25,282 nt of DNA from a virus: positions 1 to 25,282 of the IMG/VR virus record IMGVR_UViG_3300042294_000364, one strand, 5' to 3'. Each line of letters begins with the position of its first letter. Position 1 is the first letter of the stretch. Both the position numbers and the translations under genes were made by a program. This document shows positions 3,113 through 18,898 of the stretch, piece by piece. The notes beneath the pieces are model-generated. The model was not told where the DNA came from. It was given only the letters and a program-made list of their open reading frames with translations, and ran no database searches.

Positions 3113-3204
3113 GTACGGTACGCACGAACAACATCTTAGACGCTAGTGGTGGCAATACGGCTACGATAAATAGCATGACCCCTACTGCGGATAGTTTGCA
3201 ATGA
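3109..3204 (+). pseudogene. 31-residue orphan N-terminus of a tail fibre gene
   Basis: This ATGA-coupled reading frame encodes only 31 residues, beginning MSTVRTNNILDASGGNTAT. The first ~30 residues align without gaps with the start of the full-length fibre at 3842 (MSTIKTNAILDASGGETAT), including the following N-x-x-T-P-T. After that it stops, and the stop overlaps the start of a homing endonuclease ORF. The most economical reading is that a fibre gene lost its body when the endonuclease gene was inserted or moved in, leaving only the N-terminal module. Alternatively the short peptide is retained as a translational coupler. Too short for automatic gene calls, but the paralogy is clear. Confidence 0.7.
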
Positions 3205-3845
3205 GTTTTCCTTATACCGCTTTGTTAGTAATGACTCACAACAAGACGGGGTTAAAGTATTTTTGTAAGACAACCAGAATGGATGAATTACACAAATACA
3301 AAGGAAGTGGGCTTCATTGGAAGCGCCATCTAAAAGCGCATGGCAGAGATGTATCTGTTGGAGTTCTTGGGCTTTACCAAGACAAAGAGCGTTGCATGAA
3401 AGCGGCTTTAGATTTTAGTAGGCAGAACAACATCATTAAAAGCCAAGAGTGGGCTAACTTAATTGATGAGGATGGAATGACAGGGGCCGGTGCTGGTTCA
3501 GCAAATCATCGTTATGGAAAGCCACACCCAAATAAAGGTGGTACTCGACCAGACATGATTGGTAGGTTGGTTGGCGAAAAGAATGGTATGTACGGCAAGC
3601 CAAGCGCGATGCGTGGTGCGGCAAAACCAAAGGGTAAAGACAGTCCTTTATATGGTCGTAAGCGTCCAGAAGGCGGCGGTAAGCCACCCAAAACAGTAGT
3701 GCGGTTGGAAGATAAAAAAGAATATCTATCTGTCGCTGATGCTGCTAGAGATATTGACGGAACCCGCAGCGGAATTACAAAATGTTGTCTAAACAAAGCA
3801 AAAACTGCTCATGGTTATACATGGGCTTATAAGGAGTTTGCATGA
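3201..3845 (+). CDS. GIY-YIG-type homing endonuclease with NUMOD repeats
   Basis: This 214-residue protein has an N-terminal domain (about 5-95) with the pattern LLVMTHNKTGLKYFCKTT, a diverged GIY-YIG core, then YKGSGLHWKRHLKAHG and ANLIDEDGMTG as in phage Seg-like enzymes. Three NUMOD3-type DNA-binding repeats follow (SANHRYGKPHPNKG near 100-113, EKNGMYGKP near 126-134, GKDSPLYGRKRPEG near 145-158). A NUMOD1-like helix-turn-helix module ends it (about 166-211, including LSVADAARDIDG and KTAHGYTWAY). Such free-standing enzymes cut cognate DNA and spread by repair. It sits between a truncated and an intact copy of the same fibre N-terminus and overlaps both by four bases, so it is neatly grafted into the fibre operon. 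The cut site is unknown. Confidence 0.88.
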   Translation: MSFPYTALLVMTHNKTGLKYFCKTTRMDELHKYKGSGLHWKRHLKAHGRDVSVGVLGLYQDKERCMKAALDFSRQNNIIKSQEWANLIDEDGMTGAGAGSANHRYGKPHPNKGGTRPDMIGRLVGEKNGMYGKPSAMRGAAKPKGKDSPLYGRKRPEGGGKPPKTVVRLEDKKEYLSVADAARDIDGTRSGITKCCLNKAKTAHGYTWAYKEFA

Positions 3846-5104: not shown

Positions 5105-5301
5105 TCCTACCTATGCCTACCCATACGGACATTGTAGAAACCAAACTATCGGCTCATGAGATCATCTGCGCTGAAAGATACCGTGGGATCAATGCACGGC
5201 TAAAGCGCATTGAGGTTATTGGCATTGGTGCAACTGCAACAATTATTGCCGCTATGGGGTGGGTAATTAACCTGCTGATTGGGCTGGTAGCCAAACTGTG
5301 A
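5101..5301 (+). CDS. Small membrane protein, XhlA/holin-accessory-like
   Basis: This 66-residue protein has an amphipathic N-terminal half (VETKLSAHEIICAERYRG, INARLKRIE) and one C-terminal membrane segment (about 39-62, IGIGATATIIAAMGWVINLL). This layout matches XhlA-type proteins, which attach to membranes and assist holins, but no residue signature proves it. The GTG start at 5101 overlaps the previous stop; an ATG four codons downstream (5113) is an alternative, and neither has a clear Shine-Dalgarno, so coupling is likely. It lies far from the main lysis cassette at 15.4-16.6 kb, so a tail-associated or membrane-anchoring role is also possible. Confidence 0.55.
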   Translation: MILPMPTHTDIVETKLSAHEIICAERYRGINARLKRIEVIGIGATATIIAAMGWVINLLIGLVAKL

Positions 5302-5639
5302 ACTTTGAGAGTCTGGCCCAAGTACGCTTTGGCGATCCAGATGGGCTAAAAGAGTTTCTGTTTGAAAACGGTATTCAGCACCAATCCTTTGCCGAGCGCC
5401 TAATTGACCTTGGATTTACGGTTCCGCGCTATCCGCTGATAGACGCTGACGTAGAGGATTTGGACGATTGGCTGGCAATCCACCAGATTGAGCATCAGGC
5501 TTTTGCTACCATATTAGACTTGGACAACCCGTTCAATTTACTTGACACGGATTGGAACCAAGAGGATTCTTTCTATGATTGGATCAACAGCCATCTGCTG
5601 ATCCATGAACAGATTGCTAAAGCATTAGGCGTTACATAA
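5298..5639 (+). CDS. Hypothetical protein with three internal repeats
   Basis: This acidic 113-residue protein of unknown family carries three diverged copies of a ~30-residue unit, near residues 13-43, 51-80 and 88-113. The shared pattern is D-x-(D/E)-D/G-L/F-x-(D/E)-(F/W)-(L/I), a spacer of about five, then H-(Q/E)-x-(F/I)-A; examples are DGLKEFLFENGIQHQSFA, EDLDDWLAIHQIEHQAFA and FYDWINSHLLIHEQIA. Each unit is likely a helical hairpin. No catalytic motif or membrane segment is seen. The GTG start overlaps the preceding stop by four bases. It is the last gene before the acyl carrier protein, separated by a short leader with the ribosome site AAGGGG. Confidence 0.6.
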   Translation: MNFESLAQVRFGDPDGLKEFLFENGIQHQSFAERLIDLGFTVPRYPLIDADVEDLDDWLAIHQIEHQAFATILDLDNPFNLLDTDWNQEDSFYDWINSHLLIHEQIAKALGVT

Positions 5640-5649
5640 GGGGCTAAAT

Positions 5650-5931
5650 ATGGATTTCCTAGCGCTGGTGCATGAGGTAGGCAAGATAGCCAAGCCTATG
5701 CACCAAGACTCACTTGAAAAACCCGATTGGGATTCACCGTTTAACGAACTAGGCTTTGACAGCCTAGATATGCTCATGGTGGGCTTGTATATGTGCGACA
5801 TATACGGGGTGCCGGAAGAGGTTGGCAAGACCATGCAGGTCACAAATTGCACCCAATTGAAGTCATTTATTGACCAGCATAAGACCAAGGAGCCGGAAAG
5901 CGTAGAAGCGGCTATTGAGTCGGTCAAATGA
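5650..5931 (+). CDS. Acyl carrier protein
   Basis: This 93-residue acidic helical protein carries the phosphopantetheine attachment motif G-F-D-S-L-D with Ser38, at the start of helix II, followed by MLMVGLYMCDIYGV as in bacterial ACPs. Length and the acidic, helical pattern (helix I about 2-15, helix II 38-52, then TQLKSFIDQHK as helix IV) fit the family. To work it must be converted to holo-ACP by a host phosphopantetheinyl transferase, since none is encoded here. It is preceded by the leader TAAGGGGCTAAATATG and overlaps the ketosynthase gene by four bases, so the two are probably translated together. Whether it carries fatty acyl, polyketide or other chains is unknown. Confidence 0.9.
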   Translation: MDFLALVHEVGKIAKPMHQDSLEKPDWDSPFNELGFDSLDMLMVGLYMCDIYGVPEEVGKTMQVTNCTQLKSFIDQHKTKEPESVEAAIESVK

Positions 5932-7028
5932 TCTACCTTAATTACTGGAATACGGCCTGTACTGAGCAAACTACGCTCATGGATGACCTAATTTTTCCCC
6001 AAAAGGTACATTTTTTCCCCTCTACATACGCCAAAAAAGACACCGGATTGGTCTACGCGCCACACCGCTTAGTCGAGATGGTCTGCACCCCCCAAATAAT
6101 TTCACATATTAGGGAAAACCCTAAGTCTAAGCAGGCGTTCATTTTGGCAGGCGGCAACCAACACTTTGCCGGAATCAATCCTCGCAAGATTAAGGACACC
6201 CAGTTGTCCTACGTGTACAAGTTTCTACCGTTTACGCTTACACAAGTGTATGCAGGCAGGCTGGCGCAGATGATGGGGGTGCATGATCTTATCCAAACTG
6301 ACGCTTCTGCCTGCGCGTCTAGCCTGAAGGTGATGACGGACGTAAGAAACCTGATGTTGTATGAAAAGTTTGATCGGGTAGTCGTTTTAAGTGTCGAAGA
6401 TGCTGTTTCCAACTCTGTTTTGGAGTTTTTTGGGGAGGCAAAGGCTATTTTGACCCCAGAAGAGGAAGAAAAAGGGGTGTTACCAAGCGCTTTTGACAGC
6501 CAAAACTACGGTTTTCATGTCGCGCAGGGCGCTGTTTTGGCAATCTTTGAGGCTACTCCCCAAGAAAACACAATTGCTGCACTGCGTCATAGTTCCAATG
6601 CTTCAGAAAGAAGTACCAATGCCATAGGGCAGAACCCTAGCGGTCAGGGATTCATCCGTGCGATCAATGGGTGTGTGGATCAGGGGCTAGACCCGGAGGC
6701 TATAAGCGTGGTAAAGAGTCATGGCACGGGTACCAAGTCCAACAATGAGGCCGAAAAGAACGCTTTGAAAGACCTAAACACCCATTTTGTCGCTACCAGT
6801 TACAAGCCAAAAATAGGGCATACTATGGGCGCTTCGGGCTTGCTAGAAACCCTATTATTGTTAGAAAATATGAGGAATGGGTTTGTGCCTGAAATACCCA
6901 ATCGTACAGAGGATGACTACGTTTACCTGTCAAAGCCTGTAGAGGCACCCAAGGGGCTAGTGTTAAGTTTGGCGGCTGGCATGGGCAATATCTACTCTGC
7001 CGCCGTGTTTGAGCCTATGGGGGCATGA
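5928..7028 (+). CDS. Beta-ketoacyl-ACP synthase (KAS II / FabF-like)
   Basis: This 366-residue thiolase-fold condensing enzyme would extend an acyl chain by decarboxylative Claisen condensation on ACP. The full triad is visible: Cys129 in TDASACASSL, His265 in SHGTGTKSNNEAE, and Lys293 plus His298 in KPKIGHTMGASGL, spaced as in FabF. It is shorter than the usual ~410 residues because the N-terminal strand region is degenerate (no G-L-G-x-x-S/T-P). The C-terminal gate that normally reads G-F-G-G-T-N is AAGMGN here, so the gating phenylalanines are absent, which suggests altered substrate handling. It overlaps both the ACP gene and the following gene by four bases. Substrate unknown. Confidence 0.88.
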   Translation: MIYLNYWNTACTEQTTLMDDLIFPQKVHFFPSTYAKKDTGLVYAPHRLVEMVCTPQIISHIRENPKSKQAFILAGGNQHFAGINPRKIKDTQLSYVYKFLPFTLTQVYAGRLAQMMGVHDLIQTDASACASSLKVMTDVRNLMLYEKFDRVVVLSVEDAVSNSVLEFFGEAKAILTPEEEEKGVLPSAFDSQNYGFHVAQGAVLAIFEATPQENTIAALRHSSNASERSTNAIGQNPSGQGFIRAINGCVDQGLDPEAISVVKSHGTGTKSNNEAEKNALKDLNTHFVATSYKPKIGHTMGASGLLETLLLLENMRNGFVPEIPNRTEDDYVYLSKPVEAPKGLVLSLAAGMGNIYSAAVFEPMGA

Positions 7029-7480
7029 TGGCACAATTAGTTGATAGCCAGCAACAAGAGTTAAGTGTCGAGGAAATCCTTGACATTGTAAACTGGTCAT
7101 CTCCAGAGCCAATGGAGACTGCTCGTTTTATCGCTATGATAAACGCAGAACTCCAGATGCCGAATACATTGTTCATTCGGCAAGGCAATACTCTATTCAT
7201 CATCCACAAGGCAGACCGTGGTGTGGGATTGTTCCGCGCCTTGAACGCGGATACTGCTAGAAACTTTCTTGCAAACAGCGTGGAGTTTATCAAAGCCTGT
7301 CACAAGATGGGTTTTGACACGATGGCTACTCAATTTAGTGATGCGTCACTGCTAAACATATTTCGGTTTATTTCGGAAAACCCTCCAATTGAGGGCATGG
7401 GCTATGAAGCAAAACAATTGAATGACGGTAGTTTCTACGTTACGGTTAAAACGGGGCCAGTTAGAGGTGCGAAAAAATGA
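7025..7480 (+). CDS. Hypothetical protein, possibly GNAT-like
   Basis: This 151-residue protein overlaps the ketosynthase stop (two ATGs in tandem at 7025 and 7028). A long mixed alpha/beta region contains NTLFIIHKADRGVGLFRAL, a helix FLANSVEFIKACHKMGFDT, then TQFSDASLLNIFRFISENPP and GMGYEAKQLNDGSFYV, ending in a basic tail. The order strand-strand-helix-strand-helix-strand with the phrase MGFDT(x)3-F-(S/x)D is reminiscent of small phage proteins assigned to the GNAT fold, but no acetyl-CoA loop (Q/R-x-x-G-x-G/A) is plain. If it is a GNAT-fold acyltransferase, its neighbours would supply acyl-ACP. It may equally be a structural or chaperone protein. Tentative. Confidence 0.4.
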   Translation: MMAQLVDSQQQELSVEEILDIVNWSSPEPMETARFIAMINAELQMPNTLFIRQGNTLFIIHKADRGVGLFRALNADTARNFLANSVEFIKACHKMGFDTMATQFSDASLLNIFRFISENPPIEGMGYEAKQLNDGSFYVTVKTGPVRGAKK

Positions 7481-8976
7481 ATAAATATGCACTTATAGAG
7501 TCTGGTTGGGTACCCGGACACCCAGATGCGTTCAAACCAAATGCTGTCGGCAAGATTAGTTTGTATGGCTCAAACCCATTAGAAACCATTGGGGATTTAG
7601 TTGGGGACACTTTTGAGGCTGTTGGAGATTTGGTTGAGGATGTAGTAGACGTTGTTGAAACAACAGTTGAAGTTATCGTTGAAAACCCAGAAATCCTAGT
7701 CATTGCTATTGCTGCACCCTATGCAATCTCAGCCATTGGTACTGCTATGGGAGCCTCAGCAGCAACAATTGCTGCCGTAACCCAACCAATTACAGCCGCA
7801 GCGATCACTGCAAGCCAAGGTGGGGACATTGAAGACATTGGTAAGGCGGCTCTGGCTGCTTACGTTGCACCAAGAGTTGCTGGTTCCACAGCAGCCACGG
7901 CTTCTGCTTCAGGATTACAAAACACACTGGCTAACGTAGTAGGTGGTGCCGCAGGTGGCGCTACAGCCGCAGCCATTACGGGTGGCGATATTGGTCAGTC
8001 TGCCGTTAGTAGCGGCATAGCAAGCGGGGTAGGCGCTGAAGTCAAAGAAGGACTAACAGGACTTGGCGGCACACCAACCGAACCACAAGCAATTACAGGA
8101 GCCGAACAAGTTGGTGCAACGCAAGGTGGTCTTTCACCCTCTACCGCTGAAACCATTGGTCGAGTAGTAGGCGCTGCTGCTGGCGGTGCTGCTACTGGAA
8201 ACACAGAGGCCGCTGTTACTGGCGCATTGCTTGGCGAACTTAACCGTGAGTTAAAGAAACTTACGACAGACGAGGTTGATATTGGCTTTGGCCCCGGCAA
8301 ATTCCAACAAGACCTGACAGAACAAGATATTGTCGGTATGCCGGAAGACCAGTTTGATCGCATGATGACCGCGATTGAACAGGATTTAAGCGGGTCAGAG
8401 CGTGAACAACTGTTTGCTCCTGACGCTCCGGGTATTGGGCCACAAGACTATGGCCTTACCGCTGGCACTACCCGTAGGCCAAGAGAAGAGATGGGAGGCG
8501 CTCAAGGCGCTGGCGGTGAATTAGAAGAGTTGCCAGAAGATATTAACTTTGAAGAGATTTTTGCTGGCGAGTATGGCGGTGAAGGACTGCGTGGCCCTGA
8601 AGTATCTGCTGCCGAAGGTATGGGTGGTGGTACTGGACTAACCGTGCCGCGTGAGAAAGAGACTGTCACTGAGCGTGGCGTAGAACCTGAAGACCAAATC
8701 TTGCGCCAGATTGAAGAGGAGATGTATCCAACTCCCGGTACGCAAGGGGTTGTACGTCAGCCTTCTGATCTGTCTACGCTTCAGTTAAGGGTTTCGGGTG
8801 AAACGCCAGCGTCTACTGCTGCCCGTGAAACACCTGCAATCTCTACCCGTGTCACTGGCGAAGCAGGCGAAGGCATCCTTGGGGAAAAAGAGCCGATATT
8901 CGGTGGTGATGAAGATGAACAACGTGCGGTATGGAACCGCCGTTCACTGCGCCTTAGACGCGCTTTAGGATTCTAA
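7477..8976 (+). CDS. Large Gly/Ala-rich internal virion protein
   Basis: This 499-residue protein has no enzymatic motif. After a polar N-terminus (1-45), acidic amphipathic repeats (DLVGDTFEAVGDLVEDVVDV) lead into a hydrophobic helical stretch (about 65-115, including LVIAIAAPYAISAIGTAMGA), then long Gly/Ala/Thr-rich segments that suggest a membrane-interacting or DNA-ejection protein. The second half (about 245-499) is acidic and low-complexity, with a short basic C-terminus (NRRSLRLRRALGF). Proteins of this composition lie beside internal virion proteins in short-tailed and related aquatic phages. It overlaps the preceding gene by four bases. Role inferred from composition and neighbours. 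Confidence 0.6.
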   Translation: MNKYALIESGWVPGHPDAFKPNAVGKISLYGSNPLETIGDLVGDTFEAVGDLVEDVVDVVETTVEVIVENPEILVIAIAAPYAISAIGTAMGASAATIAAVTQPITAAAITASQGGDIEDIGKAALAAYVAPRVAGSTAATASASGLQNTLANVVGGAAGGATAAAITGGDIGQSAVSSGIASGVGAEVKEGLTGLGGTPTEPQAITGAEQVGATQGGLSPSTAETIGRVVGAAAGGAATGNTEAAVTGALLGELNRELKKLTTDEVDIGFGPGKFQQDLTEQDIVGMPEDQFDRMMTAIEQDLSGSEREQLFAPDAPGIGPQDYGLTAGTTRRPREEMGGAQGAGGELEELPEDINFEEIFAGEYGGEGLRGPEVSAAEGMGGGTGLTVPREKETVTERGVEPEDQILRQIEEEMYPTPGTQGVVRQPSDLSTLQLRVSGETPASTAARETPAISTRVTGEAGEGILGEKEPIFGGDEDEQRAVWNRRSLRLRRALGF

Positions 8977-16215: not shown

Positions 16216-16636
16216 CTTCACTTTAGAGGAACTAACTTCCTCAGAAACGGCAGACAGACATGGAATTGATAACACGCCTTCGGCAGAAATTATCGAAAAT
16301 CTTAAACACCTTGCGGCAACTCTTCAAGAGGTAAGGACGCTACTTGGCAACAAACCAATCACGGTTTCAAGCGGCTATCGTAGCCCTGCGGTCAATGAGA
16401 AACTGGGTAGCAAACCGACTTCTGACCACTGTAAGGGTTTGGCGGTTGACTTCATTTGCCCGTCTTTTGGAACCCCCGATGAAGTTGTCCGACAGATTAT
16501 GGCTTCGGATATACCGTATAAGCAGGTCATTAGAGAATTTGATAGATGGGTACATCTCGCGGTATCAGCGCCGGGAGAGGAACCGCGCCGCCAAGCGCTA
16601 ATTATTGATAAGCAAGGTACACGGAACTATGCCTAA
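16199..16636 (+). CDS. M15A-type D-Ala-D-Ala peptidase endolysin
   Basis: This 145-residue enzyme of the peptidase M15A family contains TVSSGYRSPAVNEKLGSKPT, then SDHCKGLAVDF with His77 and Asp84 as zinc ligands, and RWVHLAVS with His119 as the third ligand. It would cleave stem-peptide bonds of peptidoglycan. The GTG start at 16199 overlaps the holin gene by 17 bases and is preceded by GAGGG. No signal peptide is present, so export depends on the holin. Length is typical. Confidence 0.9.
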   Translation: MNLSPNFTLEELTSSETADRHGIDNTPSAEIIENLKHLAATLQEVRTLLGNKPITVSSGYRSPAVNEKLGSKPTSDHCKGLAVDFICPSFGTPDEVVRQIMASDIPYKQVIREFDRWVHLAVSAPGEEPRRQALIIDKQGTRNYA

Positions 16637-16862
16637 AAAGAACGTGTCACTAGCCATCAGCCGGGGCGAGAAGTTACCTGTCAGCCGTGGTGCTGGCTTG
16701 ACTGCAAAGGGAAGGGCCAAGTACAACCGGGAAACCGGAAGTGATCTCAAGGCTCCAACCAAAGATACCAGTAGCGGTAGGCACAAGTCGTTCTGTGCTA
16801 GAAGCCGTAACTGGAAAGGTGAACGCGGCAGAGCCGCACGTAAACGATGGGGGTGTAGATGA
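16629..16862 (+). CDS. Small basic conserved phage protein (DUF6321-like)
   Basis: The 77-residue reading from ATG 16629 is preferred over an earlier in-frame ATG at 16605, which lies inside the endolysin gene. The peptide carries GLTAKGRAKYNRETGSDLKA and later KSFCARSRNWKG, then ends in Arg/Lys. This G-L-(S/T)-x-K-G-R-x-x-(Y/F)-N-R-(E/A)-(T/S)-G-S pattern is a recognisable small family in aquatic phages (DUF6321-like). Strong positive charge suggests nucleic-acid contact. Its stop overlaps the next ATG. Confidence 0.75.
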   Translation: MPKKNVSLAISRGEKLPVSRGAGLTAKGRAKYNRETGSDLKAPTKDTSSGRHKSFCARSRNWKGERGRAARKRWGCR

Positions 16863-16996
16863 AAGCCAAAGGACTGTATTACAACATTAACAAACGCCGT
16901 AAAGAAGGCAAGACTCCAAAGAAGCCCGGACAGAAGGGCTACCCAACACGCGAGGCTTTCGTGCGATCCGCTAAGACCGCACGTAAACCACGCTAA
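16859..16996 (+). CDS. Small basic peptide (45 aa), conserved phage family
   Basis: This frame is reconstructed from the ATGA overlap at 16859 and closes at 16996 after 45 residues. It starts MKAKGLYYNINKRRKEGKTP and contains KKPGQKGYPT; the order GL(Y/W)-x-N-I-x-x-(K/R)-R plus KPG-x-K-G-x-P-T matches a tiny basic family in aquatic phages. Role unknown. It is the last gene of the + strand, about 40 bases before the terminator. Confidence 0.75.
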   Translation: MKAKGLYYNINKRRKEGKTPKKPGQKGYPTREAFVRSAKTARKPR

Positions 16997-17035
16997 TCTC
17001 TCCTTCCCTGCCTTACCTTCCCGGCAGGCTTGAAC

Positions 17036-17063
17036 CCCCCGGTCTAGTGCCGGGGGTTTTTTT
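17036..17063 (+). terminator. Rho-independent terminator of the late + strand operon
   Basis: A 7-bp G+C stem (CCCCCGG pairing with CCGGGGG, 17036-17042 and 17050-17056) with a 7-base loop is followed by seven T, a classic intrinsic terminator for the + strand. The T tract overlaps the stop codon of the - strand gene that begins at 17301, so the two arms meet here. No good T tract exists on the opposite strand. Confidence 0.92.
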
Positions 17064-17301
17064 ATTTAAGTCTGTTTACCTGATCGCAGATTACGCCTGC
17101 GATTAGCGCACGTTCCTCTGCCGTACCATCCACCATCTTGCAGATCACGCGATCATTCTCAGTAATGATCTCAAGACTGCCATCCCTGCGCGACATAACA
17201 GCCCAAGGCAATTGGCACATATCGACAACCCATTTCGGTTCATCCCCAACCTCATGCTCCCACCTTTGACGGTCATCATCGTCATCTTGTAATGTAGTCA
17301 T
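17062..17301 (-). CDS. Hypothetical 79-residue acidic protein
   Basis: Reading left on the - strand, ATG at 17301 follows GGAG and overlaps the end of the glycosyltransferase by 20 bases. The protein has an acidic N-terminus (MTTLQDDDDDRQRWEHE), a WVVDMCQLPWAVM core and a helix AEERALIAGVICDQVNRLK. No family recognised. It is the last gene of the - strand operon, with its stop inside the opposing terminator. Confidence 0.55.
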   Translation of the reverse strand: MTTLQDDDDDRQRWEHEVGDEPKWVVDMCQLPWAVMSRRDGSLEIITENDRVICKMVDGTAEERALIAGVICDQVNRLK

Positions 17302-18094: not shown

Positions 18095-18457
18095 CTAATC
18101 ACCGTCTTTTGCGGACGGATGCACCTCTGGCTGTGCGGGGGGTAATTCATTTCCTAAAAACTTGAGCATATCCTCCCACCTGACTAAGGCCAATGACTTC
18201 TCGCCATCAGCCCTCATCACTACGATGGGAGTCTGCCCCTCCTTACATGATGCCTCTGCCTGCTTCATAAACTCATATACAGCGATTTTGCGGCGGCGCT
18301 TACACTCGATCACGAACTGCTCAAGGATAATGTCACCCTCGCCAGCCTCCTGATACTGTACTAGGTTGCGCCGTGTCTTATAGCCAAGGATCATGTACAG
18401 ATCATTGACTATATCTCTTTCGTACTGCGCCCCGCGCTGTCGCTGTAGTTTACCCAT
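18095..18457 (-). CDS. PD-(D/E)XK nuclease, Holliday-junction resolvase type
   Basis: This 120-residue protein shows the order of Hjc/RecB-like nucleases: Glu13 in RGAQYERDIV, then GYKTRR, Asp42 in GEGDI, Glu51 and Lys53 in VIECKRR, then a helix YEFMKQAEAS and a strand TPIVVMRADG. Together these are a complete E...D...ExK active site. It would resolve recombination junctions or replication branches. It sits in the recombination operon after the SSB-like and annealing proteins. The ATG overlaps the stop of the preceding gene by one base. Confidence 0.82.
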   Translation of the reverse strand: MGKLQRQRGAQYERDIVNDLYMILGYKTRRNLVQYQEAGEGDIILEQFVIECKRRRKIAVYEFMKQAEASCKEGQTPIVVMRADGEKSLALVRWEDMLKFLGNELPPAQPEVHPSAKDGD

Positions 18458-18606
18458 TAGAAGCAGGTTGTGTTGCAGTTACCGTTGTAGCAGCATGTCG
18501 TACACATAATCAGTTTGCCACCAGAATTGATGGTGTGAGTTGTGCAGTTAGCATACACGGCAGTTGCAAACGTCAATCCAAATACAGCAGCAATAACTTT
18601 TTTCAT
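18457..18606 (-). CDS. Secreted Cys-rich miniprotein
   Basis: The start chosen is ATG 18606 because AAGGGG lies at proper spacing; longer in-frame starts up to 18645 lie in the upstream gene. The 49-residue product has a clear Sec signal (MKKVIAAVFGLTFATAVYA, cleavage after AxA near residue 19) and a 30-residue mature part with six Cys (NC, MC, TCC, NC, TC). It should be oxidised to disulfides in the periplasm. The role is unknown: it could bind host envelope, block secondary infection, or help lysis. It is embedded among recombination genes. Confidence 0.7.
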   Translation of the reverse strand: MKKVIAAVFGLTFATAVYANCTTHTINSGGKLIMCTTCCYNGNCNTTCF

Positions 18607-18616
18607 GGTTTTCCCC

Positions 18617-18898
18617 TTAAAAAGGTACATCGTCATCCAAGTCATCCATCGACTTGCTCGGAACTGGTTGCACGTTCTGCTTGTAGCCGGGATCGGGCTT
18701 CCAGTTATCTTCCTTCAGGGAGATTAGTGGCCCCCGTCCAGACTGCTTAGTCCATGCAGCAATCTTGACTGTCTCGCCTGCTGCATAGGCACGTTCTAAT
18801 TTTAACTCCCCCTTCCAATCTGGCCCTGCTCCACCTTCTGCTTTTTTAGTGTTGGTGAATAGTACGCCAGTACCCGGTTTGCGCTCTTCGTATGCCAT
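18617..18898 (-). CDS. SSB-like small protein with acidic DDVPF tail
   Basis: This 93-residue protein has a basic, beta-rich body (KPGTGVLFTNTKK, DWKGELKLERAYAAGETVKI, GRGPLISLKEDNWKPD) and ends KSMDDLDDDVPF. The terminal D-D-(V/I)-P-F with acidic residues matches the partner-binding tip of bacterial SSB. The body is too short for a standard OB-fold SSB, so this could be a compact phage ssDNA-binding protein or a host SSB-interactor mimic. ATG follows AAAGGAA. The stop lies just before the ribosome site of the Cys-rich gene. Confidence 0.6.
   Translation of the reverse strand: MAYEERKPGTGVLFTNTKKAEGGAGPDWKGELKLERAYAAGETVKIAAWTKQSGRGPLISLKEDNWKPDPGYKQNVQPVPSKSMDDLDDDVPF

Follow-up and report, generated by a model that had tools for sequence, protein, structure and literature searches.

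An acyl carrier protein (ACP) and a beta-ketoacyl-ACP synthase (KS), encoded by overlapping phage genes, constitute a conserved and selected module of known chemistry, found in a new setting and with a KS that belongs to a new clade. Across hundreds of contigs from uncultured tailed phages, ACP and condensing enzyme occur as an obligate selected unit, and the two genes stay joined while moving between virion and replication operons.

Gene organization in the analysed DNA

The complete stretch of DNA that was analysed, referred to as the window, comprises 25,282 bases and is a linear virus record from IMG/VR. The relevant features are:

5298-5639, + strand: 113-aa protein, function unassigned, upstream of the ACP gene
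5650-5931, + strand: ACP, 93 aa, with predicted phosphopantetheine site Ser38 (codon 5761-5763) in a DSLD motif
5928-7028, + strand: KS with FabF-type fold, 366 aa
6312-6314, 6720-6722, 6804-6806 and 6819-6821, + strand: codons of the KS catalytic residues Cys129, His265, Lys293 and His298, respectively
7025-7480, + strand: GNAT-fold protein (third gene), 151 aa; a virion-block gene, not part of the ACP-KS cassette
7477-8976, + strand: first presumed internal-virion (ejection) protein, 499 aa, adjoining the GNAT gene in the virion contexts examined

Every junction between the ACP, KS, GNAT and first ejection-protein genes is a 4-base ATGA overlap. An earlier note on this DNA had described an ACP with Ser38 and a KS with a Cys-His-Lys-His catalytic set, coupled by such an overlap and placed between tail and internal-virion genes. 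The pair is present as claimed, according to reading frames, Pfam matches, fold match and conservation, and the placement agrees with the window and is typical of 140 related loci, the ejection label being presumed.

Elsewhere in the window, the strand switches at about 16600-17100 from virion genes on the + strand to replication-type genes on the - strand. Between tail-fibre genes lies one for a 214-aa protein (3201-3845) which by eye is homing-endonuclease-like, with NUMOD-like repeats. A small Cys-rich protein with a signal-like N-terminus is encoded at 18457-18645 (- strand), and a weak homologue was found at the same place in contig L270 (18630-18842).

The acyl carrier protein

As judged from its sequence, the first gene encodes a divergent ACP, for which phosphopantetheinylation is predicted at Ser38. 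It shares with type II ACPs the DSLD attachment motif and the small size, but differs in its divergent sequence and a C-terminal extension of about 15 residues, and the single window sequence scores 17.8 bits with the Pfam PP-binding family, below the cut-off of 20.8. Only three of 28 phage ACPs match this family at E 0.01. A profile of these 28 proteins searched against the PDB gave 12 matches, all of them acyl carrier proteins (best E = 1.5e-4), and the DSLD serine is aligned in the match displayed. Residues D37, S38 and D40 are identical in all 81 sequences compared, the motif being either DSLD or DSMD.

The ketosynthase

The KS has a thiolase fold with N- and C-terminal ketoacyl-synt domains, and the window protein exceeds the Pfam cut-offs for both (PF02801, 57.4 bits; PF00109, 36.6 bits). 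Its structure model (pLDDT 92) has FabF as top PDB fold match in Foldseek (E = 1.6e-20), and actinorhodin KS is also among the matches, i.e. the fold is FabF/KS-CLF like. Cys129, His265, Lys293 and His298 align with Cys163, His303, Lys335 and His340, the catalytic residues of E. coli FabF. Of 188 sequences covering the position, including the bacterial homologue described below, 187 have the Cys, and His265, Lys293 and His298 show no variation wherever the sequence covers them. The KS of contig L228, otherwise intact, has an Arg at the catalytic Cys position, representing either a sequencing error or an inactive enzyme.

Although fold, ketoacyl-synt domains and catalytic residues are shared with FabF, the phage KS is only about 23% identical to the aligned E. 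coli protein, has a shortened N-terminal half within its 366 residues, is encoded by phages, and scores 89.5 bits with the NCBIfam FabF equivalog, far under the cut-off of 493.75. The gate of FabF-type enzymes, a GFGG loop with a flanking Asn, governs substrate access and the oxyanion hole (PMC7138838). In place of GFGG-x-N the phage KS has GMGN-x-Y, with Phe400, Gly402 and Asn404 of FabF replaced by Met352, Asn354 and Tyr356, and so departs from the FabF gate. The phage motif is without variation in alignments of 82 and of 39 sequences; the end of the L210 sequence is frayed at this point. The protein would work like a KS, yet by the equivalog score it is not FabF itself. A dedicated ACP together with an altered gate suggests a KS with a preference for its own ACP and for a particular substrate, and from the gate we infer an altered choice of substrate or partner.

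Distribution, linkage and selection

The three genes are present in the same order in MW202545.1 (L006), a complete circular 57-kb phage record from Manatee Spring, with 59%, 41% and 32% identity, respectively. As this order recurs both in MW202545.1 and in more than 100 viral contigs, chance can be excluded. A first profile scan identified 421 viral contigs encoding the KS, a number that subsequently rose to at least 568. From these, 190 distinct loci were fetched, and in all 182 with upstream sequence an ACP gene directly precedes the KS gene, the remaining eight contigs having at most 70 bases ahead of the KS frame. Stop and start codons of the two genes overlap, mostly by 4 or 1 bases.

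Median pairwise dN/dS values are 0.068 for the KS and 0.086 for the ACP in loci of the virion context, and 0.064 and 0.057 in loci of the replication context (see below). These ratios indicate that the pair is under purifying selection. Taken with the near-invariant catalytic residues, values of about 0.07 suggest that ACP and KS form a conserved two-part enzyme module that is presumably active. Both the existence of relatives and purifying selection, on which the earlier note had made its interpretation depend, were thus found, as was the constant association of ACP with KS. Because the pair occurs in more than 180 phage loci and also in a phage record that is complete and circular, cellular contamination or an assembly accident is ruled out, and the dN/dS values rule out decay or passenger DNA. 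As metabolic genes on which purifying selection acts in bona fide phage genomes, the two have the properties of auxiliary metabolic genes.

In a set of 50,697 phage records, MW202545.1 was the only one with relatives of the phage ACP or close relatives of the KS, and the collection searched contained no cultured representative of the group. Members of the KS clade come almost exclusively from these phages. Matches in records named as 'Listeria', 'Enterococcus' and 'Staphylococcus' phages were rejected, since they concern only the general KS core (about 21–30% identity) and are probably bacterial sequence. Some further features of MW202545.1 may be mentioned. Its deposited KS gene (22437-23381 in L006) is annotated too short, as homology runs to 23537. 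The record also encodes matches to SPFH/Band_7, a Tad2-like anti-Thoeris domain, YdaS and a 2OG-Fe(II) oxygenase, and it is labelled Siphoviridae despite an SU10-type adaptor and an Sf6-type terminase.

Relocation and deletion of the pair

Two main genomic contexts were observed. In 140 loci the pair resides in the virion block, typically between the gene for a tail protein of about 670 residues, which corresponds to a virion structural PHROG in MW202545.1, and the GNAT gene. The latter adjoins the pair in 139 of these loci, and the one exception ends at a contig edge; the reading frames of L032 also include a GNAT gene. In 48 other loci the pair has a helicase-like gene on one side and small early-type genes on the other, labels that derive from our reading of the sequences, and no adjoining GNAT gene. 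A third context was found in a single locus, L027.

In the KS tree the loci of the replication context require one or two changes of context and are nested within the virion-context diversity, next to L083. Six of these contigs (G182, G183, G184, G186, G189 and G190) carry the GNAT gene away from the pair, and all replication-context contigs with the tail-protein gene have a GNAT gene. In the stretches of G182 and G183 that were read, the pair is encoded on the strand opposite to the virion genes, and tail protein and GNAT have no ACP-KS genes between them. L083 is likewise the nearest match for other virion genes on these contigs (c94, c74), which fits relocation inside one phage lineage.

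In one sublineage the pair has been deleted from its place beside GNAT. Contigs L121, L122 and L124 contain the GNAT gene and no KS gene; they are fragments, and their phages may carry a copy of the pair elsewhere. L152 (36.8 kb) likewise has GNAT and no KS gene. In L121, a homologue of the 113-aa protein is encoded directly upstream of GNAT, with a KS remnant alone between them: within the spacer of this sublineage, a 52-base segment matches positions 933-984 of the relatives' KS gene with 86.5% identity (E 4e-12; none of 500 shuffled spacers matched). This remnant implies that the pair was formerly present in the L121 sublineage and was then deleted, and hence that it is not always required at that place.

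These cases bear directly on two points of the earlier note. It had taken the late position of the pair as an argument for a role in assembly, exit or the virion itself, which finds no support, since 48 loci have the same pair in a replication operon and, where checked, on the strand opposite to the virion genes; position is therefore ruled out as a guide to function. The note had also asked for a check of whether pair and third gene always occur together; this held for ACP and KS and failed for the GNAT gene, which is separable, as seen in the 48 relocated loci and the L121-type deletion.

The GNAT-fold protein

The third protein could not be assigned to a family by sequence in Pfam searches, which included 40 members at E 0.1. 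The proposal that it is a GNAT-fold protein was borne out by structure prediction: the model (pLDDT 91) matches GNAT acetyltransferases, with RimI as best hit (E = 5.5e-5) at a moderate TM of about 0.6. As regards the R/Q-x-x-G-x-G/A CoA-binding loop of the GNAT fold, the loop between strand 67-74 and the helix starting at 78 is short, as read by eye from sequence and secondary structure. The position of the gene ahead of the ejection proteins presumably resembles that of a T7 gp13-like protein, but none of the 40 members had a sequence match to such a family at E 0.1. The GNAT gene keeps to the virion block when the pair is relocated or deleted; it is a virion-block gene and not a third part of the cassette, and membership of the cassette is thereby ruled out.

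Bacterial relatives

A single bacterial homologue of the phage KS was identified in GTDB contigs, namely in the Sulfurovum MAG contig JALSPX010000176.1 (L087). This KS is 35% identical and carries the same GMGN-x-Y motif. The region 179-3886 of L087 encodes a ferritin-like protein, an ACP, the phage-clade KS, an MBL hydrolase and FabG. A further KS-like frame lies at about 7554-8000. From its gene content the cluster looks like a specialised biosynthetic cluster and not like a housekeeping fatty-acid operon, and it is a possible source of the phage pair. Compared with this homologue, FabF-type proteins from 150 Campylobacterota genomes are much more remote from the phage KS, and among the plasmid KS matches listed identity was about 23–29%.

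Proposed function and alternatives

We propose that phosphopantetheine and malonyl groups come from the host, that chains carried by the phage ACP are lengthened by the phage KS, and that the resulting product changes the acyl or lipid pools of the host, an explanation to which we give an even chance. A host phosphopantetheinyl transferase (PPTase) would modify Ser38 of the phage ACP, giving the holo protein, and a host malonyl transferase of the FabD type would load it with malonyl. Cys129 of the KS would then accept an acyl chain and condense it with malonyl-ACP by means of His265, His298 and Lys293. Host reductases and dehydratase could complete the cycle, or the beta-keto product might be used directly. 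With the new chains, the infected cell would have an altered acyl or lipid supply, most likely of membrane or envelope lipid. A search of 28 phage records, many of which are fragmentary, revealed no PPTase, and the Pfam matches listed for 60 proteins of MW202545.1 (25 of 28 families) include no other fatty-acid enzyme. Hence, the pair probably depends on host enzymes, i.e. holo-ACP synthase and malonyl transferase, as well as FabG, FabZ and FabI if the chains are reduced. What we infer is enzyme activity, reliance on host enzymes and, most of all, the product and its destination. Weighing against the proposal are the weak Pfam score of single ACPs, the deletion of the pair in the L121 sublineage, the Cys to Arg change in L228, and the fact that the sole bacterial homologue found is part of a seemingly specialised cluster.

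Rather than supplying new chains, the pair could slow or redirect host lipid metabolism, as a sink, as a malonyl-ACP decarboxylase, or by ACP binding to regulators such as SpoT. The early-type position in 48 loci and the altered KS gate agree with such a diversion, and bacterial ACP binds SpoT and promotes MukBEF action, according to two reports (PMC3340395, PMC8602292). A decoy ACP, however, would need no coupled KS with four conserved catalytic residues, and we regard this explanation as unlikely. The gene neighbourhood of the nearest bacterial KS, with its ACP, ferritin-like protein, MBL hydrolase, FabG and KS-like frame, could instead point to a beta-keto or short polyketide-like small molecule, released by the host and acting as signal or toxin. 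This appears quite improbable, as no recognised releasing or tailoring enzyme adjoins the phage pair. That the pair has a structural or non-catalytic function in the virion, as the original reading of the late position would have it, fits its location in 140 loci ahead of the GNAT gene and the presumed ejection proteins, but is highly improbable in view of the near-invariant catalytic residues and the relocation to a replication operon.

Enzymes of the HlyC and LuxI families have a GNAT fold and take acyl-ACP as substrate, which makes it attractive to suppose that KS and ACP produce acyl-ACP from which the GNAT protein transfers the acyl group to a phage protein, e.g. an ejection protein that enters the membrane. 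In most loci GNAT is indeed the next gene, followed by presumed ejection proteins; six replication-context contigs have it elsewhere, and those with a tail-protein gene all retain it. The GNAT model also lacks an obvious long loop for the CoA pyrophosphate, which would be consistent with a non-CoA donor. The absence of this loop would also fit a purely structural GNAT-like protein, however, and the GNAT gene remains where the pair has been deleted (L121, L122, L124) or moved away. Protein acylation by this route is therefore distinctly doubtful. Its more specific form, in which GNAT attaches the phage-made chain to an ejection protein as a phage-directed acylation of the DNA-injection apparatus, we consider very unlikely because of the independence of GNAT from the pair.

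Comparison with known phage ACP genes

ACP genes have been reported in Erythrobacter phage vB_EliS-R6L (PMC5463345) and Alteromonas phage R22Y (PMC11705849). As in the present case, these are ACPs of phage genomes discussed as auxiliary metabolic genes, but in the available parts of the two reports they are presented without a partner KS and with unclear function. A description of a coupled ACP-KS phage module was not found in the open-access literature. The defined two-protein system makes the role of phage ACPs directly testable and, if active, would clearly show a virus controlling the synthesis of acyl chains, our proposed explanation of the pair. A set of acpP, fabF and fabG genes has been described in Rhodobacteraceae prophages (PMC8224337). 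There the order fabG-acpP-fabF is that of E. coli, suggesting that the set is possibly a host operon included in the prophage call, whereas the phage pair has a KS of a separate clade and is without fabG.
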